In this document: piece after piece, positions 43,717 through 62,353 of the stretch
How positions within the stretch are numbered: position 1 is the first letter of the stretch
Layout: each line of letters opens with the position of its first letter
Virus record (IMG/VR): IMGVR_UViG_3300031669_000007
Span: 1 to 64,000 of that record
From: a virus
DNA length: 64,000 bases
Direction: 5' to 3' (one strand)
Notes under the pieces: model-generated
The model's input: only the letters and a program-made list of their open reading frames with translations
Told to the model about the DNA's origin: nothing
The model's database searches: none
Program-made: the position numbers and the translations under genes

Positions 43717-43722
43717 AATAAG

Positions 43723-43730: not shown

Positions 43731-43772
43731 TTAGTGATGGCTCCAGTCTGGAGCAACATACGGTGTCTCTGG

Positions 43773-44549: not shown

Positions 44550-45307
44550 AATGGGTCATCCTCTATTGAATCATTGTCATCGTCGGCAGTGTCGTTTGTA
44601 TATCCTACCGTGCTACCCGAGAAAGGATTATATCCGGCTGCAATAGAACTGCCATTGTCTTGAAGAGGATCAGTTAATACTAATTGTATGCCAGTTGGTC
44701 CAAGCCGAATCATTATATTCCCTGCGTGTACATCAGTGCTAAACGCTGAATTAGAGTTATATACTTCTTGAATTAACTGTATAGCTTGAATTAATTTTTC
44801 ATCACTGAAAATCTCGTACATATTAATGCTTGACTCAATTCCTTTTTCAATGTCACTTGAAATATTCCACAGTAATAATTCTCCTAGACGATGGTAGGCC
44901 AGAGCTTTCTCAGTGTAAATCTTTTCGGCTATTATCTCAACTAAGTTTTCTATCTCAGAGTTTGCTTCACTAATTGTCATTAGTTTTTCCATATTATAAG
45001 CTGGTTTAACTAATCCATCGCTATATCTTTTAAAGACAACTTCATAGACTCTTGGGAAATATGGGTTGCTTTTCATAAAAGGAGAACATGCTTTGATATA
45101 TTGATAATATGCATCGTTCTTTAGATTAGATGGCATTCTTATTTTCTTACGATACATGTGAGTATCAAGAGGATCTGGTGTCCCACGAGCATACGCCCCA
45201 CCATTTGTAGTGTCGATTTTTTGTCTTTGCCCCATCTTTTCAATGTTGTATGGTTTGCTTATCGGACGCTCGACATGTATTGGTTCTATTATCTCATTGA
45301 TTTTCAT
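44546..45307 (-). CDS. Second kinase-fold protein with leader
   Basis: A 253-residue protein with leader M-K-I-N-E-I-I-E-P. Kinase-like elements: P-R-V-Y-E-V-V-F-K-R (strand and Lys), L-G-E-L-L-L-W-N helix, S-T-D-V-H-A-G-N-I-M-I-R (D-x-H-x-x-N catalytic loop) and L-V-L-T-D-P-L (metal Asp). The glycine loop is not clear. Acidic end (TADDDNDSIEDD). A paralogue in fold, not in sequence, of 40414-41064. Confidence 0.55.
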   Translation of the reverse strand: MKINEIIEPIHVERPISKPYNIEKMGQRQKIDTTNGGAYARGTPDPLDTHMYRKKIRMPSNLKNDAYYQYIKACSPFMKSNPYFPRVYEVVFKRYSDGLVKPAYNMEKLMTISEANSEIENLVEIIAEKIYTEKALAYHRLGELLLWNISSDIEKGIESSINMYEIFSDEKLIQAIQLIQEVYNSNSAFSTDVHAGNIMIRLGPTGIQLVLTDPLQDNGSSIAAGYNPFSGSTVGYTNDTADDDNDSIEDDPF

Positions 45308-46432: not shown

Positions 46433-47174
46433 TTTTTAATCGTTCCTTTAGTAATGGCAACAATGTTTTTCTAAATTCATTCTCATTCATATGCCCTTTA
46501 ACAGTATTCACTATTCTAAGACAAAAGACTAAATTTTCTGCGGCGGCGGTTTTCTCAGTAGGCCAGTTATAAAAGAATGCTTCATTGACCGAAATCTTAT
46601 GATCGATTGTCCTCTTCAGCGGGTCATTTGGGTTGACTTTTTCTAATAAATTGTCATTGAATGCAATGTCGGTATAATAGCATGTGTTAGGTATTAGGTT
46701 AATTTTCTTAATTTTGTCAACCTGTTTTTTAGTCATTGACTCTACTTCTTTTCTATAATTATTAAATTCCTCATTGATTTTTAATTTTTTATAAGGTATT
46801 AAGTTTTGTTTCTTGAACCCTTCTCCGGGTCGTTGGCCATTATTAATAACGCCATATCGATTAAGCATTGATGCCTGCATTTTACTTTGTCTCTTATCAT
46901 TGGTGTTTTTACCGCTAATCCCTTCATAAACACCGCCCTTCTTCAAAATTTCTGTGATCAAATTTCGCAATTTCCCACCAAAAACTTTAGTGCTTTCTTT
47001 CTCAATAACATATTTACAACATTCAGAAACCGAATATGTCTCTAAGTAATACTTAGCTATATAATCATTGAGAACATCCTTTAATCGTAATACTTCCTTC
47101 TGATAATCAGAACAATTTCTAAAATGAGCCGTATTTCCCTTAGGTATCTCTAATCCACAAACACATTCACACAT
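46419..47174 (-). CDS. HNH-type homing endonuclease
   Basis: A 251-residue protein. N-terminal C-E-C-V-C-G zinc motif with a later H-F-R-N-C, a basic middle with R-Y-G-V-I-N-N-G, and an HNH-like core R-T-I-D-H-K-I-S-V...A-A-E-N-L-V-F-C-L-R-I-V-N-T-V-K-G. Family differs from the other two HNH genes. Overlaps the start of the leader-bearing gene downstream by 14 bases. Confidence 0.65.
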   Translation of the reverse strand: MCECVCGLEIPKGNTAHFRNCSDYQKEVLRLKDVLNDYIAKYYLETYSVSECCKYVIEKESTKVFGGKLRNLITEILKKGGVYEGISGKNTNDKRQSKMQASMLNRYGVINNGQRPGEGFKKQNLIPYKKLKINEEFNNYRKEVESMTKKQVDKIKKINLIPNTCYYTDIAFNDNLLEKVNPNDPLKRTIDHKISVNEAFFYNWPTEKTAAAENLVFCLRIVNTVKGHMNENEFRKTLLPLLKERLKNENQ

Positions 47175-47442
47175 AATAGTTCTCCTTACTATTATTTATG
47201 CTGGATAGCGTCTTATCTAATAGAAGTTCGTTAATCTTCATAACTTCCATCCTTTCTGAGATAGGTACAGTTAATAATATTTGTTCAACTTTCTCATAAT
47301 ACTGATATGCGTCCATAATTCTTGGAATGGCAATACCAACACCGAGAGATATAATACCGGCAGCGGCCAATTTAGCAACTTTTGCTTTAATACTTTCTTC
47401 AAGTATTTGTGATTCTGTTAATATAAATTCGCTTGATTTCAT
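47167..47442 (-). CDS. Small leader-bearing membrane-type protein
   Basis: Start at 47442 (M-K-S-S-E-F-I-L-T-E-S-Q), an ATGA overlap; L-T-E/S is a good prohead-protease-type site. The 91-residue product has one hydrophobic helix (KLAAAGIISLGVGIAIP), so it could insert into the membrane after delivery. Its 3' end overlaps the HNH gene start. Confidence 0.5.
   Translation of the reverse strand: MKSSEFILTESQILEESIKAKVAKLAAAGIISLGVGIAIPRIMDAYQYYEKVEQILLTVPISERMEVMKINELLLDKTLSSINNSKENYYV
47193..47200 (-). promoter_or_regulatory. Late-type promoter CATAAATA
   Basis: Minus-strand CATAAATA 18 bases before the HNH gene at 46419-47174, with AAGGAG in between. Confidence 0.5.
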
Positions 47443-48197
47443 AATGTCCATCCCTCATTCTGATAATAGTGTTTAGCCAAAACAAGCCAATTTGAATTAA
47501 CCACTATTGCTTTGTCTGCTATTAGCATTATTTCGTGTGATGATCTAATGCCACCTATTAAATCTTTATTAAACTGATAATCACCGTCGATCATAAAATC
47601 ATTGACATAATTATAATTATCGAATACTTGTTTCATCTTTTCTTTTAAAGAAAAAGAACTAGCGTGTTCATCTCCGTCGCCAGCTGCATCAGTGAAGTGT
47701 TCCATACTTTCATACATATCGACATAATTTCTGGACCAGCAGAAGCTAAAATTACCCATTGGTATTACCACGACGGTATCACCGTATCCAGATGCCTTAG
47801 CTTCCTTACCAAAACAAAATAACGATTGGCGTCTAATTCTGATGTTTGTTCTTTCTTCAAACCAATCATCTATTGCTGCGCTAACATTCTTGGGTGTGTC
47901 TTTTGGGTTACGGTCTTTTCTGATGTTCACAGTGTTAAACGGATGCTCTTCTGGTATATCCATTGCCTGATGGTCAGGAATACCCACACCTCTGAATAAC
48001 GGGTAATTAAACAAAGCATTCTCGATGCCGCCGACCTGAGTCAGGTATGGTTGTGATGTTCTCGTCAGAAGAGCCGCTAACTCTGACAGCGACGATTTTA
48101 TTTTATTTACTTCATTTGCATCTGACCATTCGATATCATTCTCTATTTTTGCTGTGTCAGAATCAAGGTCTTCTAAGATTATGTCTTTAATTTTCAT
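47439..48197 (-). CDS. ADP-ribosyltransferase-like protein with leader
   Basis: A 252-residue protein with leader M-K-I-K-D-I-I-L-E-D. Core motifs: Y-P-L-F-R-G-V (Arg), R-R-Q-S-L-F-C-F-G (Ser block), V-V-V-I-P-M-G and S-S-H-E-I-M-L (Glu). Clear paralogue of the next gene (48194-48862): D-D-W-F-E-E-R and D-Y-Q-F-N-K-D are shared. ADP-ribosyl transfer is inferred from the R-S-E order. Confidence 0.55.
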   Translation of the reverse strand: MKIKDIILEDLDSDTAKIENDIEWSDANEVNKIKSSLSELAALLTRTSQPYLTQVGGIENALFNYPLFRGVGIPDHQAMDIPEEHPFNTVNIRKDRNPKDTPKNVSAAIDDWFEERTNIRIRRQSLFCFGKEAKASGYGDTVVVIPMGNFSFCWSRNYVDMYESMEHFTDAAGDGDEHASSFSLKEKMKQVFDNYNYVNDFMIDGDYQFNKDLIGGIRSSHEIMLIADKAIVVNSNWLVLAKHYYQNEGWTL

Positions 48198-48862
48198 TCT
48201 GGCTCCACCAATTTCTTTAAGAATTTCTGTCGTATTACTAATGCCTTTTTACAGGAGAGCATTATTTCTGTCCCGGAAAATATCGCACCTCGAATATTGG
48301 TATCAAATCGATAATCTCCTGAATCCATAAATTCGTTTATTCTAGCTTTGTAAAACTGTTCTGCCTCATGCACAGACATGCCAGCACCTCCGTTGGGCGG
48401 CTTGTAGTTAAATTTGCCTAATGCAACAAATAAGTCTCTATACTGGGCAGAATATGCATAGTGGTATTCTCCCATTGGTATTACAATTAATGCACCGGTT
48501 GCCATTCCTGAATAAGAAATAGCGATATCAAATCGACCAGTGCAATGCAACGATGTCTGTCTAAATCTGACACCTACACGCTCTTGAAACCAGTCGTCAA
48601 TGAGAATCTGAACTCCTTCAGGGGTATCTGTCGGAATCCGATTTTGATTTACTATAACAGTTTTGGCGTGAGAACCAGGCGGAAATTCTATTTTCTCTAT
48701 TCCTCGATACATTGGATAGTCGATTATTGCAGCGTCGAATCCACCTATCTCTTGAAGATATGGTTGACATTGTTCTTCTGCGAACATTCTTATGCCAGCA
48801 AACTCTTTAAGAAGCTCTTTTTTAGTGTCACTGTCTTCAGTAATTATCTCTTGTATTTTCAC
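48194..48862 (-). CDS. ADP-ribosyltransferase-like protein with leader
   Basis: A 222-residue paralogue of 47439-48197: leader M-K-I-Q-E-I-I-T-E-D; Y-P-M-Y-R-G-I, R-Q-T-S-L-H-C-T-G, L-I-V-I-P-M-G and G-T-E-I-M-L. The I-T-E/D site matches the T4 cleavage pattern. ATGA overlap on both sides. Possible target: host RNA polymerase or ribosome, by analogy with T4 Alt; speculative. Confidence 0.55.
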   Translation of the reverse strand: MKIQEIITEDSDTKKELLKEFAGIRMFAEEQCQPYLQEIGGFDAAIIDYPMYRGIEKIEFPPGSHAKTVIVNQNRIPTDTPEGVQILIDDWFQERVGVRFRQTSLHCTGRFDIAISYSGMATGALIVIPMGEYHYAYSAQYRDLFVALGKFNYKPPNGGAGMSVHEAEQFYKARINEFMDSGDYRFDTNIRGAIFSGTEIMLSCKKALVIRQKFLKKLVEPE

Positions 48863-49620
48863 TTTGGGTTCACCATCTGAGATAACGATCTATACCAGGA
48901 TGGAGAACCTACTTGAATAGATTCTGGCAAGTTAATTAATCCCTTTTTGGCATCTTCTCTTGCCTGTGCTAGTTTTGCATCTCTAGCTGGGTCAGATGCC
49001 AATGCTTTCATTATTGTTTTAATGCTGGCCAGGTCTGCTGCTGTTGCCTTAGGATTAAGCAGTATCTTAGCCACAGAATCTTTGTCGTCTGCTACCACCA
49101 CGCCTGTCTCTCTGTTAACTAGCTTGCCCTCAAATGGGCTGAACTTTAAGCCTAATGATTTGGCAATGCTTGAATATAATATGAATAGCTGACCGCCCTT
49201 AAAGTCTGGATCATCGTATTGTCCTGACGGACCATGCTGATGGAACGGTGCGACTTTAGCTGCATTCGGAATGACCATAATATCTAGCTGAACAAACGTG
49301 CCATCTGGCACTGGCATACGAACGTGGACATTACGTCCCGACAATGCGACCTGAAACCCCTCTTTCTCAATGTATTGCTTTAATGCTAATTTAGTATATT
49401 TCTCGTCTGGTGTATTAAATAACTGTGCTAATTTACCGGCATCAACAAATACATCCATGTCACCTGACTCAACCTTATATCCAGCCGATCCGATATCTGG
49501 AATAATATTAATTCCAAATGGCATTATCTTCTGAATATCTTTAATTATTCCTGGGACATATTCTCTTTTAATTGGAGATACGTCAGGAAATACATTTCCG
49601 CCTTCATTTAATTGATGCAT
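48859..49620 (-). CDS. Pol-beta-type nucleotidyltransferase-like protein
   Basis: Start at 49620 (M-H-Q-L-N-E-G-G) with AAAAGGA upstream; L-N-E/G is a prohead-protease-type site. The 253-residue body has I-G-S-A-G-Y-K-V-E-S-G-D-M-D-V-F-V (residues about 45-62), the G-S-x(n)-D-x-D pattern of pol-beta nucleotidyltransferases, and V-Q-L-D-I-M-V-I as the third Asp strand. Nucleotide transfer onto RNA or protein is possible. Confidence 0.6.
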   Translation of the reverse strand: MHQLNEGGNVFPDVSPIKREYVPGIIKDIQKIMPFGINIIPDIGSAGYKVESGDMDVFVDAGKLAQLFNTPDEKYTKLALKQYIEKEGFQVALSGRNVHVRMPVPDGTFVQLDIMVIPNAAKVAPFHQHGPSGQYDDPDFKGGQLFILYSSIAKSLGLKFSPFEGKLVNRETGVVVADDKDSVAKILLNPKATAADLASIKTIMKALASDPARDAKLAQAREDAKKGLINLPESIQVGSPSWYRSLSQMVNPK

Positions 49621-49621
49621 A

Positions 49622-50605
49622 TTAATTCCTTTTAGCTTTACCGCCATATGTTGGAGCTAACACCTGGTTCAACGTTGGCTTGTCCTTAGGCAGTGGATCA
49701 TTGACTGTTTTGTGCCATTCTTTGCCGGTTCTCGGCGTATCTAAGCTATTTTTCTTCTTTTTATTTTTTGCTTCTTCTAACTTCTCTTTCTTTAAGCGTC
49801 TGACAGCCATCTCCTTAACTGTGTATTCATTGATCAGCTTTTTAGCTTTGTTAATTGATTCGGTCATTTCTAGTTCCTCGTTATTTGTGCTGCGATTACC
49901 GACTATGCGGTTATACAGATCTGGCCGTACTCCGACTTTATCAGTGTGCTGTTTTGTTGCCTTAGCATAATAGTTGCCGGCCAAGTTCTTAGATATTTCA
50001 TTGACTTGTGATTCTTCGGTTGGCTGCGGTTCTTGCTTAGGCCGTCTATTAGCTCTAGCTTGCATTCTTCTTTGATAGCTAGGAGCCATTTTGTAAGGAG
50101 TTTGTGGAGATGGTGGAGCAGGAATAAACGTTCCTGTCTGATTGTCGGCCATTTTCTCTAATGCCTGAACTTGTGTAGGATCGACAATTTTTTGATTTAA
50201 TTCATTGACCCAACCTGCATTAGTTTTATAATATTTTCCCTTACTTCTAGGGTCAATGATCATAAACTTTTCCCCTGGCCTTAGAGCAGGCTCCTTCTGA
50301 GGCGTCTGAGACGTCTGACCTTGAGTAGGCATATTTGATGCTCTATTTGGGTTTGGTTTTACTTGCATCTGAGCTTGGCTTCTGGCTTGCGTAACTTCTT
50401 GGCGTTTTTGTTGAAAGTTTTTTTCTGCTTGATGACTTAAACTATGCTCTAAGTCGTGGGCGCCTAACCCCCTTGCCAGACCAGAATAGGCATTAGCGTT
50501 TCTATCAATGTGGCTACTAGCTGCGGCAGCGGCGTTAGCTGCACCCTTCTTAATAGCGTCCCATATTCCTTCGTCTAACTCACTGCTAAATTCATTGATC
50601 TTCAT
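49622..50605 (-). CDS. Basic, disordered internal head protein candidate
   Basis: A 327-residue protein. Leader M-K-I-N-E-F-S-S-E-L-D-E-G. Long Gln/Pro/Asn/Arg-rich, low-complexity body; further L/I/V-x-E sites (V-N-E-I, M-T-E-S, I-N-E-Y) could be cut during maturation. Lysine-rich end (KKEKLEEAKNKKKKN). This resembles the composition of T4 internal proteins that bind packaged DNA. Confidence 0.55.
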   Translation of the reverse strand: MKINEFSSELDEGIWDAIKKGAANAAAAASSHIDRNANAYSGLARGLGAHDLEHSLSHQAEKNFQQKRQEVTQARSQAQMQVKPNPNRASNMPTQGQTSQTPQKEPALRPGEKFMIIDPRSKGKYYKTNAGWVNELNQKIVDPTQVQALEKMADNQTGTFIPAPPSPQTPYKMAPSYQRRMQARANRRPKQEPQPTEESQVNEISKNLAGNYYAKATKQHTDKVGVRPDLYNRIVGNRSTNNEELEMTESINKAKKLINEYTVKEMAVRRLKKEKLEEAKNKKKKNSLDTPRTGKEWHKTVNDPLPKDKPTLNQVLAPTYGGKAKRN

Positions 50606-51135: not shown

Positions 51136-52569
51136 TTATTTCTTAGCTCCTAATCCTGATATCATTGATTTAAGTCTGGCGGCATTAATTTCTCCTGCTC
51201 CCTTACCTGTAATCTCTGCCTCAGTCTGACTTACTGCGGTTGTGGTTGTTGATTTTGGCTTAATCTTACTCAGGATACTATTTGCTACTGATGGTGGTAT
51301 TCCCGAATCTTCCTCGCCAGTTCCGGCATCTACAATACGCAAGCTGTCTACATTAAAGTCTAATTCCACCTTGGTGCCGATACCAGAGCTTGAACGAGTT
51401 TTCAACAGTTGAAGTTGATACTTGCCGCGCTCTCGCATTGCGCGGGACGTAAAGATACCAAACACGTTATCTGCTGTGTTGATCTTGCTAATACCGCCTG
51501 AAATGTGACTGTGGTCAAATTCAACTTCATCTACTGCTGATCTATTTAACTGTGATGCTGTAATGAATAAAATATTTAATTCCCTAGCCAAGTTACGCAA
51601 TTCTTCTGAAACATACTTATCCTTGACGAATAAGTCGTTCGGGCTAACCTTGGCTGATACTGGCATCAGCAGATCCAAATAATCCACCATTAAGAAATCT
51701 ACCTTCTTTCCAGTCTGAATCTGAAACTCTCTAATATAAGCACGAATATCGTTTACGTTAGATTGCGCTGGCATATATTTAATTTGAAATGCTCCAGACT
51801 TCTTAGCTGCCATTCGAACCTTAAGTTCTACGTCGTCTAGGTTCTTAAATAGCTCACGTGTGCTTACGTTTGCAATCATTGAATCGATACGCATTGAACA
51901 TAGGCCCTCGCTTAATTCTAATGTTAAATAGATACCATTTAATCCCGCCGTAATCCAGTTTACGGATATATTTTGCATGAATAATGATTTACCTGAGCCA
52001 GATCCTCCCGCAAAGATGTTTAGCTCGCCTCTATTCATACCGCCAAATAATGCTTTATCCAATGCTGGCCAACCTGTGCTAAATTGCCCGTTGCCTGACT
52101 TAATTGCCATAAGCCGCGCTCTTGGGTCTGCAAAGTAATCAGTTCCAATATCCTTAACAAGTCCAATTTGAACTGCATCTTTAATTAACTTCTCAATTGG
52201 TGCGCGATTGCCTTTCTCTAAGTAGTCTGCTGCCTTTAATATGGCGCGTTCTAATGCTTTACTCTGACTAAATCCCTCAAACTCTTCTAAGAACCAATCA
52301 GTGTGTTCTTCTGTCAGATCCTTTGTCGGTTTAAGCGTTGTGCCAACCGACGCGTTAATTTGCTCGATTGTTGGCATTGCTTTATATTTCTCTGTGTGCT
52401 CTTTAATGAATGTTGCCGCTGGCTGCAATGAACGAGCAAAGTTCTTTGAATCAAATATATTCTGCACCCTGACATATGATTCGGGGTGGTCTAACATTAT
52501 TTCTAAGAATAGTTTCTGTAGGTCGTCGGTATATTCTTTTGCTTGTGTTTTTTCTTCTTTATTATACAT
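51136..52569 (-). CDS. DnaB-type replicative helicase (T4 gp41-like)
   Basis: A 477-residue protein. N-terminal helical domain, then RecA-like core: Walker A F-A-G-G-S-G-S-G-K-S-L-F-M, Walker B F-L-M-V-D-Y-L-D-L-L, and downstream S-Q-L-N-R-S-A and G-K-Y-Q-L-Q-L-L-K-T-R-S (motifs H3/H4 region). It unwinds the fork 5'-3' and is coupled to the primase whose gene overlaps its start by 8 bases. C-terminal 50 residues are polar and variable. Confidence 0.9.
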   Translation of the reverse strand: MYNKEEKTQAKEYTDDLQKLFLEIMLDHPESYVRVQNIFDSKNFARSLQPAATFIKEHTEKYKAMPTIEQINASVGTTLKPTKDLTEEHTDWFLEEFEGFSQSKALERAILKAADYLEKGNRAPIEKLIKDAVQIGLVKDIGTDYFADPRARLMAIKSGNGQFSTGWPALDKALFGGMNRGELNIFAGGSGSGKSLFMQNISVNWITAGLNGIYLTLELSEGLCSMRIDSMIANVSTRELFKNLDDVELKVRMAAKKSGAFQIKYMPAQSNVNDIRAYIREFQIQTGKKVDFLMVDYLDLLMPVSAKVSPNDLFVKDKYVSEELRNLARELNILFITASQLNRSAVDEVEFDHSHISGGISKINTADNVFGIFTSRAMRERGKYQLQLLKTRSSSGIGTKVELDFNVDSLRIVDAGTGEEDSGIPPSVANSILSKIKPKSTTTTAVSQTEAEITGKGAGEINAARLKSMISGLGAKK

Positions 52570-53641
52570 ACTTCTTCCTCAATAATTTTATCTTTAGTGG
52601 ATTAGATTCTATAGAATCTAATATAGTTTTAAGCACGAATAATTTTCCATATTTTTGAACTGCTTGGTTAATATCTACGCACGTCTCTGCCCATATTGGG
52701 AAACTAACTGACCAGGAATTGGCCAGTGCCACATCTATAAGATTTCCGCCAGTCTTGTTCCAATCCGGAACCACAATAATTTCTCTATCTAATCCTTCTA
52801 TAATATCAATTTGAGTTTTGGTTATGTCTGATTTAAGAACAGCGACCGCATCAATACTTATCGCATCAAATACACCCTCGCAAACAATTACAACCTTCCA
52901 GTCTTTTTTCTGTTTATCAATATTAAATACATAACCAGTGTCGATATGCTGAATATACTTAGGCGTAATGTCATCATTTAATGCTCTGGCGGTAAATCCT
53001 ATTATTTCATTTTTCCAAGTAAATGGTATAATCACCCGTTTATTCATTTTATTTTTCGTATCTGTTGACCAATAGAAATCATATTTTTGCATGTCTATCT
53101 TACGGTCATATACATATTCAACCGAATCTATTAATCCTCGAGGAAGTGGTTTAAAGTGTTCAGGCGTGGGTTGATGCTCGTCTATTCCTTCATTTGCTAA
53201 GATAAAGAAATCCATCATACCCATGAAAGATAGTGCCTCGTCTGGTAAAGGTTCTTTCTTAAAGTCTACCTTTACTTCTTCTTTCTTGTGTTCAATCTTT
53301 ACCAAGCCGAGAAGTTCTTGTCTTTGCTGTTCACGCTTTGCTTCAATGTTTAGCCGCTGTATCTCTGCTTCGTCTACGTTGAGCCATCTTAGCAACTTAC
53401 GGAATTTGTAGTATAGCGGATAGCCTGGAGTATAACTGGCTCTGAAGTTGCAGTTGAAGCAAGAATACGACACTGTTCCATCAGCATTTGCAATCATTCC
53501 TCCACGACCACGCGTATCTGCACTTTCGCCATTGTGCGGGCAGCAGACGGCATTACCTGAGATCCATCCCTTAGCATCGCGCCTTGTCTTCCTGCCGCTT
53601 GTCCATGCGCTTACTGCCGTCGATTGTATAGGGTTAGTCAT
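52562..53641 (-). CDS. DNA primase, zinc ribbon plus Toprim (T4 gp61-like)
   Basis: A 359-residue protein. N-terminal zinc ribbon with C-C-P-H-N-G-E and S-Y-S-C-F-N-C-N-F; core primase region with I-P-F-T-W-K-N-E-I-I-G-F-T-A-R-A-L; Toprim motifs V-I-V-C-E-G-V-F-D-A-I (Glu) and I-V-V-P-D-W-N-K-T-G (Asp). It makes primers for lagging-strand synthesis with the adjacent helicase. First gene of the minus-strand unit. Confidence 0.9.
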   Translation of the reverse strand: MTNPIQSTAVSAWTSGRKTRRDAKGWISGNAVCCPHNGESADTRGRGGMIANADGTVSYSCFNCNFRASYTPGYPLYYKFRKLLRWLNVDEAEIQRLNIEAKREQQRQELLGLVKIEHKKEEVKVDFKKEPLPDEALSFMGMMDFFILANEGIDEHQPTPEHFKPLPRGLIDSVEYVYDRKIDMQKYDFYWSTDTKNKMNKRVIIPFTWKNEIIGFTARALNDDITPKYIQHIDTGYVFNIDKQKKDWKVVIVCEGVFDAISIDAVAVLKSDITKTQIDIIEGLDREIIVVPDWNKTGGNLIDVALANSWSVSFPIWAETCVDINQAVQKYGKLFVLKTILDSIESNPLKIKLLRKKYV

Positions 53642-54424: not shown

Positions 54425-55204
54425 TTAAACACGGTATAAAATCTGAGTCACATGTGACGGATTAACGTTTCCGCTTGTTGGCGCAACAACAAACCTAACC
54501 GCAGTATAAACACCATCAAAATTGCAATATGATGTGGCCGTTTGTGCTGTATAATTTAAGATAGATGTGTTTCCTGACAACGGCATGACATTTGCAGTTG
54601 ATGTCAATTCAACGACTCCCCAACTTACCTGTGGGCTCCCCGCTCCAACCAAAGCCAATGAATCAAGCGTTCCCTCTACAGTAATATTTCCGGTAAAGCC
54701 AACTGTATCAAAATTGATCTGCGCTGTGTGATGTGCCGACTGTTGTAGTGAATTAATATCTGCACTAATTGCAGCAGATGTAATCGTAGTATTGTTATTG
54801 CTTGGCAAATCTACAACTATGCTAGGCAATAGCGTTGGATATGGACCATCTCGTAGTAGTATTTCTCCACGAGATTCATAGTTTTCGTCGGTGTAGACCA
54901 CCTCTGTTATTCCTGTTACTGGGTCAGATACCGTTAATGCATAGTTATAGTAGGGTTGTGATAAGTCAATGAGATCAAAAGCAGTTAATCGAACAGAGAT
55001 AATTCCTTTGACTGCATCAACGATTGTAATTCCGCCGTTTGTGTTACTATTCTTAGTTACTACAACTGCACTCTCAGAATCTGATATCATATTAAATGTA
55101 ATGACCCAACCAGTGATATTAACTGCTTTCTGATCTGAGTTTTTCCATACAAACTGTATGATGTTGTCAACGCCTTTATAAATCTTTACTTGTCTTTGAT
55201 ACAT
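54425..55204 (-). CDS. Probable tail or baseplate protein (BppU-like N-terminus)
   Basis: The start is set at ATG 55204 (MYQRQVKIYKG) because GAGGTGG lies 6 bases upstream; an in-frame ATG at 55282 is possible. N-terminal domain V-K-I-Y-K-G-V-D-N-I-I-Q-F-V and I-T-G-W-V-I-T-F-N-M, G-G-I-T-I-V-D-A, I-I-S-V-R-L-T-A resembles the beta-sandwich at the start of BppU-type baseplate proteins. The rest is a Ser/Thr/Asn-rich beta region. Virion role inferred. Confidence 0.55.
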   Translation of the reverse strand: MYQRQVKIYKGVDNIIQFVWKNSDQKAVNITGWVITFNMISDSESAVVVTKNSNTNGGITIVDAVKGIISVRLTAFDLIDLSQPYYNYALTVSDPVTGITEVVYTDENYESRGEILLRDGPYPTLLPSIVVDLPSNNNTTITSAAISADINSLQQSAHHTAQINFDTVGFTGNITVEGTLDSLALVGAGSPQVSWGVVELTSTANVMPLSGNTSILNYTAQTATSYCNFDGVYTAVRFVVAPTSGNVNPSHVTQILYRV

Positions 55205-55293
55205 GGTTTTCCACCTCGCGGTAATAGTTGGGTCAAGGTTGCATTGAACCGTGACGGAGTTTGGATAAAAATAAGTGTTCATTCTTTGCAAAA

Positions 55294-56192: not shown

Positions 56193-56424
56193 ACGGCGAT
56201 CCATACTTAATAACTGCCAATGGATAGGTTTCATCAGTAAACTCTAATGAGTCGAGAGACTTATTAAACTTCCCTTTCCCCAAGTTTGCTTTACAATTCC
56301 ATTCGTTTTCTAACCAGCTTAGCCAGTCAGGTATATCACCGTCGTATTGAGCACGGTGTTGATCATTTATGATTTTCTTCCAATTATACGGATATGGATT
56401 AGGACCGCTAAACGATATTTTCAT
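56167..56424 (-). CDS. Tail-family protein, LAVIKYGSP type
   Basis: An 85-residue protein starting MKISFSGPNPYPYNW. W-L-S-W-L-E-N-E-W-N-C-K-A-N-L-G is the helix, and the end is F-T-D-E-T-Y-P-L-A-V-I-K-Y-G-S-P. Close tandem copy of the next gene. Confidence 0.7.
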   Translation of the reverse strand: MKISFSGPNPYPYNWKKIINDQHRAQYDGDIPDWLSWLENEWNCKANLGKGKFNKSLDSLEFTDETYPLAVIKYGSPFTAYDEQE

Positions 56425-56660
56425 AATGCAGGTGGTCCATACTTAAGAACTGCTAAGAGATAGTTATCATCCTCAAAGATTAGTGCAGCTATGCATTTAT
56501 CATCACCAAATTTCCCCATCTCTACTTTACATTTCCATTCGTTTTCTAACCAGTTTATCCACTCAACTAAATTACCGTAATACATTATGCTGTGTTGATC
56601 TGAGATAACCATAGCCCAGTTAGTTGTCTTTTCATAATTATCTTTAAACGATATTTTCAT
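56421..56660 (-). CDS. Tail-family protein, LAVLKYGPP type
   Basis: Start at 56660 (MKISFKDNYEKTTNW), overlapping the previous gene by 17 bases. W-I-N-W-L-E-N-E-W-K-C-K-V-E-M-G and end F-E-D-D-N-Y-L-L-A-V-L-K-Y-G-P-P. About half the residues match 56167-56424. Confidence 0.7.
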   Translation of the reverse strand: MKISFKDNYEKTTNWAMVISDQHSIMYYGNLVEWINWLENEWKCKVEMGKFGDDKCIAALIFEDDNYLLAVLKYGPPAL

Positions 56661-56916
56661 TGTTTGCATACCTCAATAATAAAAGTGTGTAATGTTCATC
56701 ATCTACTTCTATCCTCGTAATTTTTTCATCTCTGATAGTGATTACAATTCCTAGCGTATTATATGCCCACTCTATAAATATTCTCTCGCCTACAGATGAC
56801 TCAAGGTCTTCTTTTGGTAGAGAATTTCCAATGGATTCCATAAAGTCATCCCATACACCAGCTATAGGCGGCCTGTCAGGAACATTGTCTAATGTATCAA
56901 TAGAAAAGAGTATCAT
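56644..56916 (-). CDS. Tail-family protein, LLLLRYAN type
   Basis: A 90-residue protein: F-I-E-W-A-Y-N-T-L-G-I-V-I-T-I helix-strand and tail V-D-D-E-H-Y-T-L-L-L-L-R-Y-A-N. The final Trp of L-R-W is Tyr throughout this 56-58 kb subgroup. Confidence 0.7.
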   Translation of the reverse strand: MILFSIDTLDNVPDRPPIAGVWDDFMESIGNSLPKEDLESSVGERIFIEWAYNTLGIVITIRDEKITRIEVDDEHYTLLLLRYANNENIV

Positions 56917-57191
56917 GCGGCATACTGTAATAAAAACATTGTTAATTCTTCATCATCTACTGTTACGGCATAGATAGCGTTTTCTTCTTTATCTTTGCCA
57001 ATCTTTCTTCTTTTATAGATGACCTTGCTTGATGGTATTCTTTCAGTCAATGACTGAACATATTCTTCTGTTGTTACGTCTGTTCCATCGTCGAATACTT
57101 CTCTAAAATACCTGGCCGCTGCTCTCTTAAAGGACTCGGCGTTGTGGTCGAGATATTTTCCATCTACAGCTTCAAAACTAATTGTTATCAT
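56913..57191 (-). CDS. Tail-family protein, MFLLQYAA type
   Basis: A 92-residue protein (MITISFEAVDGKYLDH) with a helical middle and tail V-D-D-E-E-L-T-M-F-L-L-Q-Y-A-A. ATGA overlap on both sides. Confidence 0.65.
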   Translation of the reverse strand: MITISFEAVDGKYLDHNAESFKRAAARYFREVFDDGTDVTTEEYVQSLTERIPSSKVIYKRRKIGKDKEENAIYAVTVDDEELTMFLLQYAA

Positions 57192-57472
57192 GGCGGAAAC
57201 CTTATTAAGAGCATAGTATAGGCAGAGTCCTCTACATCTATTCCGGCAATATGCCCAGGAAAAAGTCCGCCCGGATCGTTAAGAACTGTTATCTGCCAGG
57301 TATCTTTAAGCCAGGCACGAAACTCTTCGTATTCATTGGCATGACCAATTCCCTTCCACGGGGATTCTTCTCTAAGTGCTCGAAGTATCTTAGCCCAATG
57401 AATAGGCGAAGTGCCTCTAATTGGAAAATATCCGGCATAATCAACGATGCGATCAGTGAAAGATACTATCAT
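57188..57472 (-). CDS. Tail-family protein, MLLIRFPP type
   Basis: Start at 57472 (MIVSFTDRIVDYAGYF) by ATGA overlap; the long upstream extension is a shadow of the 57469-57684 gene. F-R-A-W-L-K-D-T-W-Q-I helix, end V-E-D-S-A-Y-T-M-L-L-I-R-F-P-P. Confidence 0.65.
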   Translation of the reverse strand: MIVSFTDRIVDYAGYFPIRGTSPIHWAKILRALREESPWKGIGHANEYEEFRAWLKDTWQITVLNDPGGLFPGHIAGIDVEDSAYTMLLIRFPP

Positions 57473-57684
57473 TCTCCGAACCTCAACATAAAAAACATTG
57501 CGTCCTTCTCCTCTTTGAAAGCATAAATGTGATACTTTAAGAAAACTACCGTCCAATCTTCGTTTTTCTTCCCCATACAAGTATTAAGCCAAGCTAAACG
57601 ATTACAGTAGTCTTGATAGGTATGCTTCTTATTAGCTCTAATAATATAGGGAAACCTGGCGTTATAGGGTAATTTTTCAATCAT
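57469..57684 (-). CDS. Tail-family protein, MFFMLRFGE type
   Basis: A 71-residue protein: C-N-R-L-A-W-L-N-T-C-M-G-K-K-N-E-D-W and tail F-K-E-E-K-D-A-M-F-F-M-L-R-F-G-E. Its end TTGAGGTTCGGAGAATGA provides GGAG to the next gene. Confidence 0.7.
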   Translation of the reverse strand: MIEKLPYNARFPYIIRANKKHTYQDYCNRLAWLNTCMGKKNEDWTVVFLKYHIYAFKEEKDAMFFMLRFGE

Positions 57685-57940
57685 ATCCGTATTTTAAGAG
57701 TAGCATGGTAAAAACTTCGTCGGGCAAATCAATATATTCAAGGTGTCTAACCATTGTATATTTTTCGGAAAACATAGCATCTATGCCGTGTTCTCCTCTG
57801 ACATAATTGTAGAAATCATCATCAAAGAAGCCAAACCCGGCATCATTTCTTAAATTAATCAAGATCTCTGACATCTTCCGACGAAGAGCATACTCTTTTT
57901 CACCGGGTGCAGGAAGGTGGTTATTGTATATTATTCTCAT
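57677..57940 (-). CDS. Tail-family protein, DEVFTMLLLKY type
   Basis: An 87-residue protein: M-R-I-I-Y-N-N-H start, long charged helix, F-Y-N-Y-V-R-G-E-H-G-I and L-P-D-E-V-F-T-M-L-L-L-K-Y. Its nearest relative in the window is 6426-6686, 51 kb away. Confidence 0.65.
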   Translation of the reverse strand: MRIIYNNHLPAPGEKEYALRRKMSEILINLRNDAGFGFFDDDFYNYVRGEHGIDAMFSEKYTMVRHLEYIDLPDEVFTMLLLKYGYD

Positions 57941-58172
57941 TCAAATATTTAAGTAACAAAAATGTATATTCTTCATCATTGACCTCTAATCCTATAATGT
58001 TCGAATTGATATCATCATTTTTAAATGTTAAATTGATTGTCCATTTTTTGTTAAGCATTGATATAAAGCCCTCTTTATCAATTTGATCGCTTTTACTGGT
58101 CACTTTATACTCTTCCGCAAGTCCGCGCAATACAGCAAAACAGGGGTGACGGTTAGTTGGTTTTATTTTCAT
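57921..58172 (-). CDS. Tail-family protein, FLLLKYLN type
   Basis: An 83-residue protein: helical N-terminus, W-T-I-N-L-T-F strand and tail V-N-D-E-E-Y-T-F-L-L-L-K-Y-L-N. Starts inside the last codons of the DnaE-like gene (20-base overlap). Confidence 0.65.
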   Translation of the reverse strand: MKIKPTNRHPCFAVLRGLAEEYKVTSKSDQIDKEGFISMLNKKWTINLTFKNDDINSNIIGLEVNDEEYTFLLLKYLNENNIQ

Positions 58173-58785
58173 TCTTAAATTCCCACAACGAGTTTTTCTC
58201 TTGTTCTGCTATTAAATTCATATGGACCACAACAAGGTGAGCATATCCAACAGCATGTGCTTTCTTGAAGGTGTATCCATCGTCTGTTTTATCCCATATT
58301 GTTTTTGCAATCTCTGCCCAACTCTTTCCTTGCAAGTGTTTCTTTCCTGGACGGATCAATGCTAGGAACATAGCCATGCGTGGTATTGAATTGATTGGTT
58401 CCGGCAGCTTGCTTATCGTTTCGTGATAATTGCCAATGTGTATTAACTGCTCGCAAAAGTCTTTCTCAAGCAATCGTGTCCACGGCGGATCAGTAAGCAT
58501 CAGTTTCAACAAGTGTGCCTCTGATTGAACTTTTTCATATACTGATACATTGAGTAGGTCTACTTTAAAATACCCGCGTTCTTCCGCTGCCTTATAGTCA
58601 ATTGTTGCCAAGTTATTTACATCGTGCGGTATGTCTGTAAAATATACACCGGTCGCATGTTTACTAAGAGCTGCATCTGTTCTTATCATGCTCGCGTTGA
58701 TATGCTTGAGATGAGCCAAAGCAGCATCTCTGCTGCCAAAGTCTATGTCGATGTCACCTTTAAATTTTTTAATTTCTTCGCTCAT
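58153..58785 (-). CDS. Miniature DnaE-like (C-family polymerase) protein
   Basis: A 210-residue protein whose segments line up in order with bacterial Pol III alpha: G-D-I-D-I-D-F-x-x-R (the P-D-x-D-x-D-F metal Asp pair), H-A-T-G-V-Y-F, Y-K-A-A-E-E-R-G-Y-F-K-V-D-L-L-N (third Asp, K-x-D-F-L-G-L), A-M-F-L-A-L-I-R-P-G-K, and F-K-K-A-H-A-V-G-Y-A (F-N-K-S-H-A-A-A-Y). It keeps the palm acids but has lost most of the fingers, PHP, beta-binding and tau-binding parts; about one sixth of DnaE length. Whether it polymerises DNA is unknown. Confidence 0.7.
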   Translation of the reverse strand: MSEEIKKFKGDIDIDFGSRDAALAHLKHINASMIRTDAALSKHATGVYFTDIPHDVNNLATIDYKAAEERGYFKVDLLNVSVYEKVQSEAHLLKLMLTDPPWTRLLEKDFCEQLIHIGNYHETISKLPEPINSIPRMAMFLALIRPGKKHLQGKSWAEIAKTIWDKTDDGYTFKKAHAVGYAHLVVVHMNLIAEQEKNSLWEFKNENKTN

Positions 58786-59037
58786 GCTGTAATAAACTCC
58801 AACGGACGTGGTTCTATTCTTATTTCTACGGGAAACCTCGGTAAACTCTCGTCTAACTCTTCGTCACAGTATATACCGTCAGCTACAATGTTATCACCTA
58901 AGAAATAAACAAACTTCTCTATCGACGGCCGCGATGCTCCTGAGTCAAATATAATAAAGTATATACGGGTCAGGATTCTTCATCGCTGCTAAAATCTGCT
59001 TTGAAAATCTTGCCGTTACGTTGGTTACTCCATTCAT
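58782..59037 (-). pseudogene. Gene with +1 frame break at ATT-TGA-C
   Basis: From ATG at 59037 (ATGA overlap with the upstream gene) 30 codons run to TGA at 58945-58947. The next frame is open from before that stop to TGA at 58782-58784, which overlaps the DnaE-like ATG, but has no start codon. A +1 shift at ATT-TGA-C gives an 84-residue protein (...Y-I-L-Y-Y-I / D-S-G-A-S-R-P-S). The site resembles the CTT-TGA-C of the prfB frameshift, without the upstream Shine-Dalgarno. A decayed gene or a one-base error is equally possible. Confidence 0.55.
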
Positions 59038-59255
59038 TGCTGATACCTTAGAATAAACATTGTTTCGTCTTCTGGCTTATCAAATACTAACTTTGCTTTA
59101 AATGCCATTCTATGAAAATCGTAGTATTCTTGTACGACATAATTCCCAGGATAATTTTTTTGCATTTGTTCTGCCACATATAGTATTGTATCCTCTTTGC
59201 CAGGATTGAATGTTTTCTCTGAGTAGATCTTATCTAAATATCTGTTATAGTTCAT
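59034..59255 (-). CDS. Tail-family protein, YPGNYVV type (MFILRYQQ)
   Basis: A 73-residue protein (MNYNRYLDKIYSEKTF): Y-P-G-N-Y-V-V-Q-E-Y and end K-P-E-D-E-T-M-F-I-L-R-Y-Q-Q. Same subfamily as 8270-8485 and 60408-60611. Confidence 0.7.
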   Translation of the reverse strand: MNYNRYLDKIYSEKTFNPGKEDTILYVAEQMQKNYPGNYVVQEYYDFHRMAFKAKLVFDKPEDETMFILRYQQ

Positions 59256-59274
59256 GCTTTATTCTCAATGACGA

Positions 59275-59484
59275 TTATCTTCCCCACCGCAGTGAGAACA
59301 ACGTCGCATCTATATCGTTAAAAAATCTAATGCCTGATCTTCCTGTCCCATCGTTTGCTTCCCCTATAGTCCAACGCTGTTCATCTGGAAGCGGAGGATT
59401 AGGCATGTTTTCCTCTAACCACAAGCCTATATCTATCTCGGACTTACCCTTTGTTGCCGAGAAGTAAAATTCTAAATCAACCAT
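59275..59484 (-). CDS. Tail-family small protein (LFSLRWGR)
   Basis: Start at 59484 (MVDLEFYFSATKGKSE), TAATG overlap. G-L-W-L-E-E-N-M, R-W-T-I-G-E and tail F-N-D-I-D-A-T-L-F-S-L-R-W-G-R. Confidence 0.75.
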   Translation of the reverse strand: MVDLEFYFSATKGKSEIDIGLWLEENMPNPPLPDEQRWTIGEANDGTGRSGIRFFNDIDATLFSLRWGR

Positions 59485-59717
59485 TATGCCCACTTCAATG
59501 CGAACAATATCGCATCCTTCTCGTTGTCGAAGCACCACACTACTTCTCCTTCTTTGACACCTGCGTATGTAATCATACTGCTATCGTCATCATCAAGACA
59601 AGTATTTTCTTCGCACCACTTTGCCATCTCTTCCATTTTTGCATTTCGAGACTTTCCCCAAATTGAGTCTAATATAGTTGATACTCTGTGGTCACCAAAC
59701 AACGAATCTTTCTTCAT
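59484..59717 (-). CDS. Tail-family small protein (LFALKWA)
   Basis: A 77-residue protein: M-A-K-W-C-E-E-N-T-C, E-V-V-W and tail F-D-N-E-K-D-A-I-L-F-A-L-K-W-A. GGAG before its ATG is encoded by the W-S codons that end the preceding gene. Confidence 0.75.
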   Translation of the reverse strand: MKKDSLFGDHRVSTILDSIWGKSRNAKMEEMAKWCEENTCLDDDDSSMITYAGVKEGEVVWCFDNEKDAILFALKWA

Positions 59718-59718
59718 G

Positions 59719-59940
59719 CTAACTCCACTTCAATAAAAACAAGGTAAACTGTTCTTCATCCATATATGCAGTCCACAGGGTTGATCCTTTGTATATTTCT
59801 ACGGTTAGACCAAATTTTCTATCGAGTAATCTCTTAATTTCTTCTATGCTTATTAACGCAGTAGAAAACTTGTTTGCGTTCATCTCAGATCTAAAGCAAT
59901 CATAAAACTTTGGATAATCCTGGAAATCAAACTGTATCAT
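59719..59940 (-). CDS. Tail-family small protein (LFLLKWS)
   Basis: Start at 59940 (MIQFDFQDYPKFYD). L-D-R-K-F-G-L-T-V helix-strand, L-W-T-A-Y and tail M-D-E-E-Q-F-T-L-F-L-L-K-W-S. AAGGTGG upstream encodes L-R-W of the preceding gene. Confidence 0.75.
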   Translation of the reverse strand: MIQFDFQDYPKFYDCFRSEMNANKFSTALISIEEIKRLLDRKFGLTVEIYKGSTLWTAYMDEEQFTLFLLKWS

Positions 59941-60167
59941 TTCCACCTTAATAAGAAAAGCATCAAGTCTTGTTCATTAACAAAATAATATGTATCACCA
60001 TTTACTATATACCAATCTGACTCTTTAAGATTGTCTTTCAACCAATCATATCTATTTTCGAAAAGATCGCTGTTCGTTTTTCCATATCTATTTTCGAAAA
60101 GATCGCTGTTCGTTTTTCCATGCAGCCTTGTCTTAAAGGGCCAAATCTTTTTATTCAATTCTCTCAT
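59937..60167 (-). CDS. Tail-family small protein with internal 12-residue repeat
   Basis: Start at 60167 (MRELNKKIWPFKTRL). Contains the exact tandem G-K-T-N-S-D-L-F-E-N-R-Y twice, then Y-D-W-L-K-D-N-L-K-E-S-D-W and tail V-N-E-Q-D-L-M-L-F-L-L-R-W-K. The repeat is a recent 36-bp in-frame duplication. Confidence 0.75.
   Translation of the reverse strand: MRELNKKIWPFKTRLHGKTNSDLFENRYGKTNSDLFENRYDWLKDNLKESDWYIVNGDTYYFVNEQDLMLFLLRWK
60047..60118. repeat. Tandem 36-bp direct repeat, two exact copies
   Basis: Two identical 36-base units (60047-60082 and 60083-60118) inside a tail-family gene. The length is a multiple of three and keeps the frame. Confidence 0.9.
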
Positions 60168-60406
60168 AGCCAACGCAATGTAAACATTGTAGCATGAATT
60201 GGGTCACGAAAGTAGAAGATCATGCCGTCTCTATACCACATTTTTTCACCGAAAGTCTCCGTGCAATAGGGTTCATATTTGAATCCCTCTGACATAAATG
60301 CTCTTGTTGTCATCTCAACTCGAACCCAAAAGATTTCTTTCCACAATAGATGCAACGGCATACTTGTTATTGTTGTTAATTTATCGAACCAAGTCTCTTT
60401 TCTCAT
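60164..60406 (-). CDS. Tail-family small protein (MFTLRWL)
   Basis: An 80-residue protein: basic N-terminus (MRKETWFDKLTTITS), Y-C-T-E-T-F-G-E-K-M-W-Y and tail F-R-D-P-I-H-A-T-M-F-T-L-R-W-L. Confidence 0.7.
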   Translation of the reverse strand: MRKETWFDKLTTITSMPLHLLWKEIFWVRVEMTTRAFMSEGFKYEPYCTETFGEKMWYRDGMIFYFRDPIHATMFTLRWL

Positions 60407-60407
60407 G

Positions 60408-60611
60408 TCAGCTACACTGTAAGATAAACAATGTTAGATCTTCTTCTGTATTAAATATTATCGAAAATACCAAGTCTTCTGCGACTTCAACCACATAGTT
60501 TCCTGGATATTGAGATTTGATGTAACTTTCAACTTTTTCTTGTAGTCTTGTATCTATGGGTTCTCCTCGAAATCGAGTAGAAACGTCTTTATATAAATTA
60601 TCTAATATCAT
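60408..60611 (-). CDS. Tail-family protein, YPGNYVV type (LFILQCS)
   Basis: Start at 60611 (MILDNLYKDVSTRFRG) because it overlaps the TGA that ends the preceding gene once its frame is restored. Y-P-G-N-Y-V-V-E-V and end F-N-T-E-E-D-L-T-L-F-I-L-Q-C-S, with Cys in place of the final Trp. Confidence 0.7.
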   Translation of the reverse strand: MILDNLYKDVSTRFRGEPIDTRLQEKVESYIKSQYPGNYVVEVAEDLVFSIIFNTEEDLTLFILQCS

Positions 60612-60807
60612 TGCCATCTCAACCTAAAAGCAATGCGTCGGGTTCGTATTTGAACCAAAAAAGAACAGAGGTTTGGAACGTGATTGGGTTTGTGACTCCT
60701 GCAGTTTTAAACCAATTATCCTCGCCTACTCCGTGATTTAACCACTCAACTATTTTTTCTCTGTTTTCCGTAACGCAGTCGGATGACAGTTGAACCTTAT
60801 ATTCCAT
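60608..60807 (-). pseudogene. Tail-family gene with tail out of frame (T4 run)
   Basis: From ATG at 60807 (MEYKVQLSSDCVTENR) the frame has I-V-E-W-L-N-H-G-V-G, N-W-F-K and reaches Y-E-P-D-A-L-L-L-G then stops at 60619. A -1 shift in CTTTTA gives D-A-L-L-F-R-L-R-W-Q and a TGA at 60608-60610 that overlaps the next ATG. One missing T explains everything. Decay, a sequencing error or -1 slippage cannot be told apart here. Confidence 0.7.
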
Positions 60808-61018
60808 TGTTACCCATCCACCGTAACGCGAAAATAGTTGCGTCCTCTGACTGACTAAACCAGAACCGTGTTCGACCAACTGAGTATGATCCATCGCTCT
60901 CATATTCCTCGCACCATCTCTGCATTTTACCAAACTCTTCGGGCATCAAGTGTTCAGCTATAGTCACTCTATACCAAGATCCTATCTGTTCCATATTTAA
61001 TGCGCCAGAATAGTTCAT
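60797..61018 (-). CDS. Tail-family small protein (IFALRWMG)
   Basis: A 73-residue protein (MNYSGALNMEQIGSWY): M-Q-R-W-C-E-E-Y-E, R-F-W-F-S-Q and tail S-E-D-A-T-I-F-A-L-R-W-M-G. Overlaps neighbours at both ends. Confidence 0.75.
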   Translation of the reverse strand: MNYSGALNMEQIGSWYRVTIAEHLMPEEFGKMQRWCEEYESDGSYSVGRTRFWFSQSEDATIFALRWMGNNGI

Positions 61019-61245
61019 CTGCTGTGCCTTAATAAGAATAAAGTAGCATCTTCGTCATTTTGAAAATATACGCTAGAATAGCTAGATGTGTATTCAAGAT
61101 TGCCTTGATATTTTATATTGAACCAAGAAATCACAAATGAATATACCTCGGCGTTAGAAAAATCTTTACCCGCAACAATATCACATTCTCGACTGAATTC
61201 ATTTATAATTTTGTTAAGATCAAAGTTAGTAATTTTTGTCCCCAT
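61015..61245 (-). CDS. Tail-family small protein (LFLLRHSR)
   Basis: Start at 61245 (MGTKITNFDLNKIINE), just after the stop of the 61247-61414 gene; the longer upstream frame is a shadow of that gene. Tail F-Q-N-D-E-D-A-T-L-F-L-L-R-H-S-R, with His for the final Trp. Confidence 0.7.
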   Translation of the reverse strand: MGTKITNFDLNKIINEFSRECDIVAGKDFSNAEVYSFVISWFNIKYQGNLEYTSSYSSVYFQNDEDATLFLLRHSR

Positions 61246-61246
61246 C

Positions 61247-61414
61247 TTATGACCACCGTAATAAAAATAAAGTCGCGCCTTGTTCACTCTCAAAATACCA
61301 ATCTTTACCACAAGCAATAAATGTATCTCTCCCGAAGTTTTTTATTGCCCATTGATATGCTGTATGCCAGGATGTATTATCCCACAATGACAAACCAGAA
61401 ACAACGTGTATCAT
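61247..61414 (-). CDS. Shortest tail-family protein, 55 residues (LFLLRWS)
   Basis: A 55-residue protein from ATG at 61414 (MIHVVSGLSLWDNTSW): A-Y-Q-W-A-I-K-N-F-G-R-D, D-W-Y and tail F-E-S-E-Q-G-A-T-L-F-L-L-R-W-S. It begins M-I-H-V like the plus-strand copy at 53742. Confidence 0.7.
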   Translation of the reverse strand: MIHVVSGLSLWDNTSWHTAYQWAIKNFGRDTFIACGKDWYFESEQGATLFLLRWS

Positions 61415-61415
61415 A

Positions 61416-61658
61416 CTAACTCCATTTCAGTAAGAACATAACAAGATCTGAGTCAGTTGCAAATTCCAACGATACTGTTTCTATCCAGGATGTACCGATT
61501 CCTTCATGCAGCACTCTATTTACCTTTACACTGTTTTCTTTTTCCATATATTTAATGTGGTCGTCTGGCACAAGGTGATAATACTGATGTCCGCCCTCAT
61601 TTCTATAAGCGTTTCGAAACGGAGTAGATATCTTTTCGATGGGGATTACTATGCTCAT
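61416..61658 (-). CDS. Tail-family small protein (MFLLKWS)
   Basis: An 80-residue protein (MSIVIPIEKISTPFRN), first of the array: H-I-K-Y-M-E-K-E-N, S-W-I-E-T-V and tail F-A-T-D-S-D-L-V-M-F-L-L-K-W-S. Its ATG overlaps the zinc-finger gene stop. Confidence 0.7.
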   Translation of the reverse strand: MSIVIPIEKISTPFRNAYRNEGGHQYYHLVPDDHIKYMEKENSVKVNRVLHEGIGTSWIETVSLEFATDSDLVMFLLKWS

Positions 61659-62353
61659 ACTTTGGCCTCTATCAACACAGATTTAATAAACTCGGTGTCG
61701 GCAACATAGTCTTTGAATTTGCGATTCCAAAAGTCTGGGTCAATAAATCTGAAGATCAATGTGACTTGTTCTTCGTTTAGTCCAGATAAGAATGCTATGC
61801 CGCTATCGCAGTTATATAGAATCCACGGAGAGATACGACCATTGACTATCATATTGCATATCTTATTGGGTGCGCCTTCTCGGAAGATATTGTTAAACTG
61901 TTTGTCTGTATCGTCTGCCCAGTTCTGCATCTCAGTGAATGAACGCTCTAATGCATCATTGGGATGTTCTTTACGCAGATAGTCGTGTAAGTATTCGTCG
62001 TAGAACGATTCCTTCGTCCATTGATCTAACTTTTTGTTTTCTTTAATGATCCACGCAATAAACATAGGCACATTGATTGCGCGTATTTGCACCAAGTATT
62101 GACCAAACTTAACAAATGCAGAATAGTATGGCGAATCTACAAAGTCGGCATAGGTTTTGGTCTTTGCTGATCCCTGTGTCATCTCATAGAATTTGAGATA
62201 TGCTTGCATACCAAGTCTTACTCCTGATTCGTTCTCTTGCTGATATCTGCGTTTCTTTTCACACATATGAACAGACAGCGTAGAGAGTTTTCTAAAACTC
62301 TTCTCGCAGTATTTACAAGTATATTTTTCTACTGTTGCTTCAATATTTGCCAT
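61655..62353 (-). CDS. C2H2-type zinc-finger phage protein
   Basis: A 232-residue protein. Residues 12-33 carry C-K-Y-C-E-K-S-F-R-K...S-V-H-M-C, a C2H2/C2HC finger. The rest (G-M-Q-A-Y-L-K-F-Y-E-M-T-Q-G; A-F-V-K-F-G; R-I-S-P-W-I-L-Y-N-C) matches a family I recall as conserved in marine T4-like phages. Function unknown; DNA or RNA binding likely. Confidence 0.7.
   Translation of the reverse strand: MANIEATVEKYTCKYCEKSFRKLSTLSVHMCEKKRRYQQENESGVRLGMQAYLKFYEMTQGSAKTKTYADFVDSPYYSAFVKFGQYLVQIRAINVPMFIAWIIKENKKLDQWTKESFYDEYLHDYLRKEHPNDALERSFTEMQNWADDTDKQFNNIFREGAPNKICNMIVNGRISPWILYNCDSGIAFLSGLNEEQVTLIFRFIDPDFWNRKFKDYVADTEFIKSVLIEAKV

Follow-up and report, generated by a model that had tools for sequence, protein, structure and literature searches.

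The C-terminal half of a putative two-piece DNA polymerase III alpha in an uncultured phage

We analysed 64,000 nucleotides from an uncultured phage (positions 1 to 64,000 of IMG/VR record IMGVR_UViG_3300031669_000007; hereafter the window), and consider with good confidence that one of its genes encodes half of a C-family nucleotidyltransferase assembled in trans, namely the C-terminal half of a minimal core of the DNA polymerase III alpha (Pol III alpha) type. The evidence comprises homology to Pol III alpha, a fixed split point, conservation of the half-site on each of two proteins, pairing of the two genes across phages, a shared gene context, and purifying selection. The gene and the motifs within it are as follows.

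58153..58785, minus strand: probable C-terminal half of a trans-split minimal Pol III alpha, phrog_11778, 210 amino acids (family, fold, and profile alignment)
58738..58755, minus strand: DIDIDF metal-binding motif, D11, D13, and D15 corresponding to E. coli D401, D403, and D405 (18-member alignment, hhalign block 397-420)
58648..58662, minus strand: KHATG motif, corresponding to E. coli KHAGG 510-514 (family alignment and hhalign)
58558..58566, minus strand: K-V-D motif, K74 and D76 corresponding to E. coli K553 and D555 (family alignment and hhalign)
58342..58353, minus strand: RPGK motif with R145, P146, and K148 invariant, compare E. coli FRPG 638-641 (family alignment)
58243..58269, minus strand: FKKAHAVGY motif, compare E. 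coli FNKSHSAAY 756-764 (family alignment and hhalign)

Relationship of the Window Protein to Pol III Alpha

The open reading frame at 58153-58785 (minus strand) begins with ATG, and a GGAG lies about 11 nt 5' of this codon. Against PHROGs, the 210-residue product matches phrog_11778, annotated as "DNA polymerase" and representing the family of C-terminal halves, over nearly the full length of the profile (E = 3.7e-58; residues 6-195 on positions 3-194 of 197). Homologues were identified by tblastn in 63 phage records, with identities of 33-51% among the matches listed; the carriers include Rak2-like, 121Q/PBECO4-like, CBB/GAP32-like, and PA5oct-like phages as well as Atu_ph07, Phosso, SCTP-2, XacN1, and others, and they infect very different hosts. 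A further 29 loci were found on uncultured viral contigs, the closest of them at 67-72% identity. Close pairs of C-terminal halves have dN/dS values of 0.01-0.14 (median 0.07); the protein is under strong purifying selection.

Comparison with an alignment of DnaE sequences using hhalign returned three colinear blocks, corresponding to E. coli residues 397-420 (PDFDVDF; E = 2.2e-3), 508-566 (KHAGG...KFDFLGL; E = 6.8e-6), and 740-773 (FNKSHSAAYA; GYGFNKSHSAAYA; E = 5.9e-4), each value being that of a single comparison. The IRPG block of the family, in which R145 and P146 are invariant, lies between the second and the third of these. Across 18 diverse members including the window protein, the residues D11, D13, D15, H43, K74, D76, R145, P146, K148, F173, K174, H177, and Y181 are all invariant, and in this alignment the catalytic DxD and K-x-D of the window protein are intact; D11, D13, and D76 align with D401, D403, and D555 of E. 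coli DnaE, the known catalytic acids of that enzyme. For two regions, E. coli 421-507 and about 567-739, hhalign gave no counterpart in the family except for the short RPG motif; by domain limits in the E. coli structure, they comprise the thumb and the greater part of the fingers. The thumb is missing between DIDIDF and KHATG, and most of the fingers before FKKAHAVGY. The PHP, clamp-binding, and tau-binding parts of alpha are likewise absent from the 210 residues, and the dNTP-binding GS motif is found on a second conserved protein instead.

The predicted structure of the window protein (pLDDT 82.6, pTM 0.74) has Pol III alpha chains as its top six solved matches (Z 6.6-8.0, a middling range according to the tool itself), with the next unrelated chain at 3.1. 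Foldseek with this half by itself also ranked Pol III alpha first, at E-values that are not significant (1.1 and above). Scans of Pfam and NCBIfam with the window protein gave no match, phmmer against the PDB gave chance matches only, and the profile of the family found no DnaE among PDB sequences; since these searches were empty, it is PHROGs, hhalign, and the fold that support the link to Pol III alpha. An earlier note on this DNA, made from the letters, had described a miniature DnaE-like protein with palm acids intact and conserved blocks colinear with bacterial Pol III alpha. The hhalign blocks and the invariance across 18 members bear out the colinearity and the acids, a DNA polymerase family is the best match in the profile search, and the fold agrees. 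What stands is therefore a reduced C-family core; that it is self-contained is unlikely, since the GS motif of the palm resides on another protein.

The Second Half, the Split, and the Gene Neighborhood

The N-terminal half is a protein of about 170 residues, phrog_11127, which matches Pfam DNA_pol3_alpha (2.1e-8). In phage CBB it is encoded as a separate 172-residue "DNA polymerase III alpha," CBB_328, with CBB_287 being the relative of the window protein; the authors of that study took CBB_328 for a truncated polymerase (PMC5259590). The GRGSS motif is invariant in the CBB_328 family. In nucleotidyltransferases of the Pol-beta type, the triphosphate is held by a G-S loop that precedes the DxD strand. 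Alignment places the N-terminal half on E. coli 285-393 (hmmsearch of the PDB) or 317-392, and all 81 distinct sequences end at [ED][FY][LFM][KR] or no more than about ten residues past it. A model from a close relative of the window phage (pLDDT 92.4) has DnaE or PolC as its top 15 solved entries (Z 7.5-12.0; next 2.2). Close pairs of N-terminal halves give dN/dS of about 0.05-0.28; the median of 0.40 over wider pairs includes near-saturated ones and is not relied on.

On E. coli DnaE, the N-terminal half ends at about residue 393 and the C-terminal half starts at about 397. The predicted folds of the two halves occupy adjacent, nonoverlapping parts of Thermus Pol III alpha (2hpi; 296-455 and 456-838), and there is likewise no overlap on the M. 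tuberculosis (5lew; 307-413 and 419-808) and E. coli (2hnh; 279-393 and 403-784) chains. Because they abut on the same solved chains, the palm itself is divided, with the GS loop on one side of the break and the DxD strand on the other. None of about 100 open reading frames encoding an N-terminal half was seen to be fused to a C-terminal half.

The two genes occur together. Exactly one C-terminal half is present in all 13 uncultured contigs of at least 200 kb that encode an N-terminal half; among the shorter contigs, two hold both and the five that encode only the N-terminal half are 104-191 kb in length. Both halves are found in every complete genome checked. Alishewanella phage Slicko01, with a circular genome of 141 kb, was considered as an exception to the pairing and rejected as such, its N-terminal half being recovered by profile search (E = 8e-18). 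The sole record checked with a C-terminal half and no N-terminal half is PP728206, an unverified entry of 109 kb from a genus with genomes of about 346 kb; otherwise, the search counts for the two halves agree by phage genus name. The genes are at least 11 kb and often 30-50 kb apart (about 33 kb in CBB and RaK2, 43 kb in PA5oct, 50 kb in the uncultured relative G002, 15 kb in XacN1, and 11 kb in Slicko01). In the 92.6-kb record from which the window derives (G000), itself a fragment, no N-terminal half was found; the close relatives G002, whose C-terminal half is 66% identical to that of the window, and G013 both encode one, G002 holding the complete pair. We infer that the phage of the window carries its N-terminal half outside the sequenced fragment.

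Four neighbors of the gene were assigned in the window.

61655..62353, minus strand: C2H2-zinc-finger-like protein, phrog_11058 (profile match)
54425..55291, minus strand: virion-structural-like protein (profile match), also so annotated between the C-terminal half and the primase in relatives
52562..53641, minus strand: DNA primase, a conserved neighbor (profile match and relatives)
51136..52569, minus strand: DnaB-like replicative helicase, a conserved neighbor (profile match and relatives)

Read along the minus strand, the contig has UvsW, the C2H2 protein, the C-terminal half, the structural-like protein, primase, and DnaB; it keeps the order of its relatives, in which UvsW and small conserved or C2H2 proteins are followed by the C-terminal half and then by primase and DnaB helicase. 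In the PA5oct-like phages, a C2H2 protein lies directly upstream of the C-terminal half. The gene for the N-terminal half is located in relatives near GroES and/or a clamp-loader subunit. A B-family polymerase is encoded by 8 of the 11 long relatives tested, and also by Slicko01 and RAS14; none was found in G000, G002, G013, or G016, an absence given no weight since these contigs may be fragments. In Slicko01, this polymerase lies in two open frames of 578 and 322 amino acids (OQ508956.1, 3529-5033); a split PolB with a split intein has been published for phage MIJ3 (PMC6892783).

The gene lies inside an array of small open reading frames sharing a C-terminal tail, as the earlier note had also claimed: 36 frames with the tail pattern occur in the window against 2.7 in shuffles, on both sides of the gene, and the 210-residue protein itself lacks the tail. 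The arrays (56421-61682, minus strand; also 6191-9735, 12006-12197, and 23000-25294, minus strand) comprise about 32 frames of 60-130 amino acids with only the tail, of the type D-A-x-L-F-x-L-R-W, in common. Out of four array members compared with PHROGs, three had no match and the fourth matched weakly to an entry of unknown function; loci of C-terminal halves in relatives have 0-5 tail-motif frames each. A separate run of frames at 40414-50605 (minus strand) shares N-termini like MKI-x-E-I-I-x-E (for example MKINEIISEAE, MKINEIIVES, and MKIQEIITED), while the remaining sequences differ; to us, these N-termini recall the capsid-targeting leaders of T4 internal proteins. Three related frames (14838-15602, 29546-30193, and 37518-38120, minus strand) have starts similar to T-Y-L-x-I-K-x-H-x-x-T-G-x-x-Y-x-x-K-T and resemble GIY-YIG-type homing endonucleases, one with a zinc-finger-like CPYC...WHGENC at its C-terminus.

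Predicted Activity of the Proposed Two-Piece Enzyme

In the enzyme that we propose, the metals would be bound by three aspartates of the C-terminal half, which would also provide the K-x-D strand and what is left of the fingers, including F-K-x-x-H; the N-terminal half would contribute the palm helices that come before these and, with GRGSS, the loop that binds the triphosphate. As neither protein has the complete G-S ... DxD ... D signature, an active enzyme should need both, docked into one palm; such physical assembly and catalysis are predictions. The docked pair would then most likely add nucleotides at the phage fork, genes for which are encoded alongside (UvsW, primase, DnaB helicase, and, next to the N-terminal half, the clamp loader). 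We infer an accessory role beside the phage B-family replicase, which could consist of primer extension or the filling of lagging-strand or recombination gaps.

Whether template-directed DNA synthesis is the main reaction of the pair we judge to be an even question. Templated synthesis may be weak or absent in an enzyme that lacks the thumb and keeps little of the fingers, and the loss of the thumb leaves room for tailing or strand starting in place of the copying of long templates. A split nucleotidyltransferase that is active without being a templated polymerase, and that tails 3' ends, adds a few nucleotides to primers, or modifies another molecule, is accordingly a possible if less favored reading: The palm residues are all invariant in both halves while the DNA-gripping domains (E. 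coli 421-507 and about 567-739) are missing, which suits such an enzyme, but the F-K-x-x-H motif of the fingers is retained and the gene adjoins primase, helicase, and UvsW in the relatives examined, both of which fit templated synthesis.

Two further readings are less likely. The extreme reduction in size, together with the B-family polymerase in most long relatives, could point to a relic of a once full-length DnaE that has lost catalysis and serves a structural or regulatory role; this is improbable, as the metal ligands and GRGSS are invariant on the two proteins and the C-terminal half evolves at a dN/dS of about 0.07. The earlier note had also suggested a decoy or inhibitor of host Pol III, that is, a mimic of alpha titrating its partners. 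A phage-encoded protein resembling alpha invites this idea, but we regard it as very improbable: The protein has no counterpart of the regions with which alpha binds clamp and tau, a decoy would not need invariant catalytic residues, which both halves keep, the complementary half-site is maintained in parallel on a second gene, the family occurs across phages of very different hosts, and the gene order is one of replication and recombination.

Should the proposed two-piece enzyme prove active, its two chains, with about 380 residues between them, would make a very small catalytic unit of the C family, from which one could learn what Pol III alpha cannot do without and how a palm may be put together in trans. 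It could also explain why phages with a B-family replicase retain a bacterial-type polymerase.

Origin and Comparison with Known Systems

The palm is also broken between its GS and PD-D-D halves in Bacteroides phage BS-TP1, where a full-size DnaE is encoded in two genes (locus L058, 866-2599 and 3842-5542) broken at the position of the jumbo-phage split. Intein-like sequence follows FLLPERAG and precedes SLPDVDNDF, a Dda-like helicase gene lies between the pieces, and the gene for the C-terminal part carries no annotation. A similar arrangement is suggested by phrog_13169, to which the N-terminal half matches at positions 339-409 and an intein N-terminal segment at 403-463. The BS-TP1 pieces differ from the window family, which has no intein sequence, in keeping PHP-like, thumb, and fingers regions and intein-like ends; for these reasons, they are probably rejoined. 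The intein-flanked break in BS-TP1 and phrog_13169 makes it possible, by analogy, that the split pair arose when a gene was fractured and its intein was subsequently lost; Iyer et al. favor descent from a minimal ancestor (PMC7824862). The more far-reaching proposal of a single active site kept on two permanently separate chains across a wide phage lineage, in a thumb-less and nonprocessive enzyme serving, for example, primer start-up or end tailing, with possible descent from a fractured gene minus its splicing ends, seems to us rather unlikely taken as a whole.

Two other kinds of gene breakage were observed. Outside the window, the record G000 encodes a UvsW helicase in two pieces (66586-69386, minus strand; locus L048, 2586-5386) with an intein N-part (CLAPGTLIKTPTGE...) and C-part (...NHNYVANGLVVSN, then CHG), the pieces flanking a free-standing homing-endonuclease-like gene in a "fractured gene" arrangement. 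Gordonia phage Terapin (L059) and Microbacterium phage Krampus (L060) also have DnaE-like polymerases in two genes; there, the break precedes the palm, the upstream gene being annotated as Pol III alpha and the second aligning from E. coli 293 or 318, and the split differs from that of the jumbo phages.

In comparison with bacterial DnaE and PolC, the C-terminal half shares with the E. coli and Thermus proteins the palm aspartates, KHAGG, K-x-D, RPG, and F-x-K-S-H in the same order, as well as the predicted palm fold; it differs in having no PHP, thumb, helix-hairpin-helix, OB, or tau-binding parts and little of the fingers, and in a palm that is not complete in one chain, with the GS motif on a separate protein. 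Members of phrog_11778 such as CBB_287, PBECO4 gp488, and the "DNA polymerase III alpha" of PAC2 match over their full length and have the same neighbors. The window protein is 46% identical to the members from Pseudomonas phages and about 36-39% to those of Rak2-like and related phages, and its gene differs from the other loci in its position inside the array of small tail-motif frames.

For jumbo phages of their group 2.2 that also have a B-family polymerase, Iyer et al. (2021) described a minimal Pol III alpha encoded as two proteins, the N-terminal one binding NTP and the C-terminal one Mg2+ and template, and suggested that the pieces reconstitute an enzyme (PMC7824862). The combination that the earlier note had called unexpected, a reduced C-family core in a phage with a B-family polymerase, was hence already on record; a limited literature search found no experimental follow-up of the split polymerase. 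The window family shares with group 2.2 the two distant genes, the genes for recombination-dependent replication, and, in most of the long relatives tested, the B-family polymerase, and differs in that the window comes from a fragment of an uncultured phage with the N-terminal half presumably outside it, and in that the split pattern extends to the complete 141-kb genome of Slicko01, which is not a jumbo phage. The two-piece arrangement is therefore already known, as predicted in 2021, and the window adds another member; new here are the fixed break point, the complementarity of the two folds on one chain, the pairing count, and the non-jumbo carrier.
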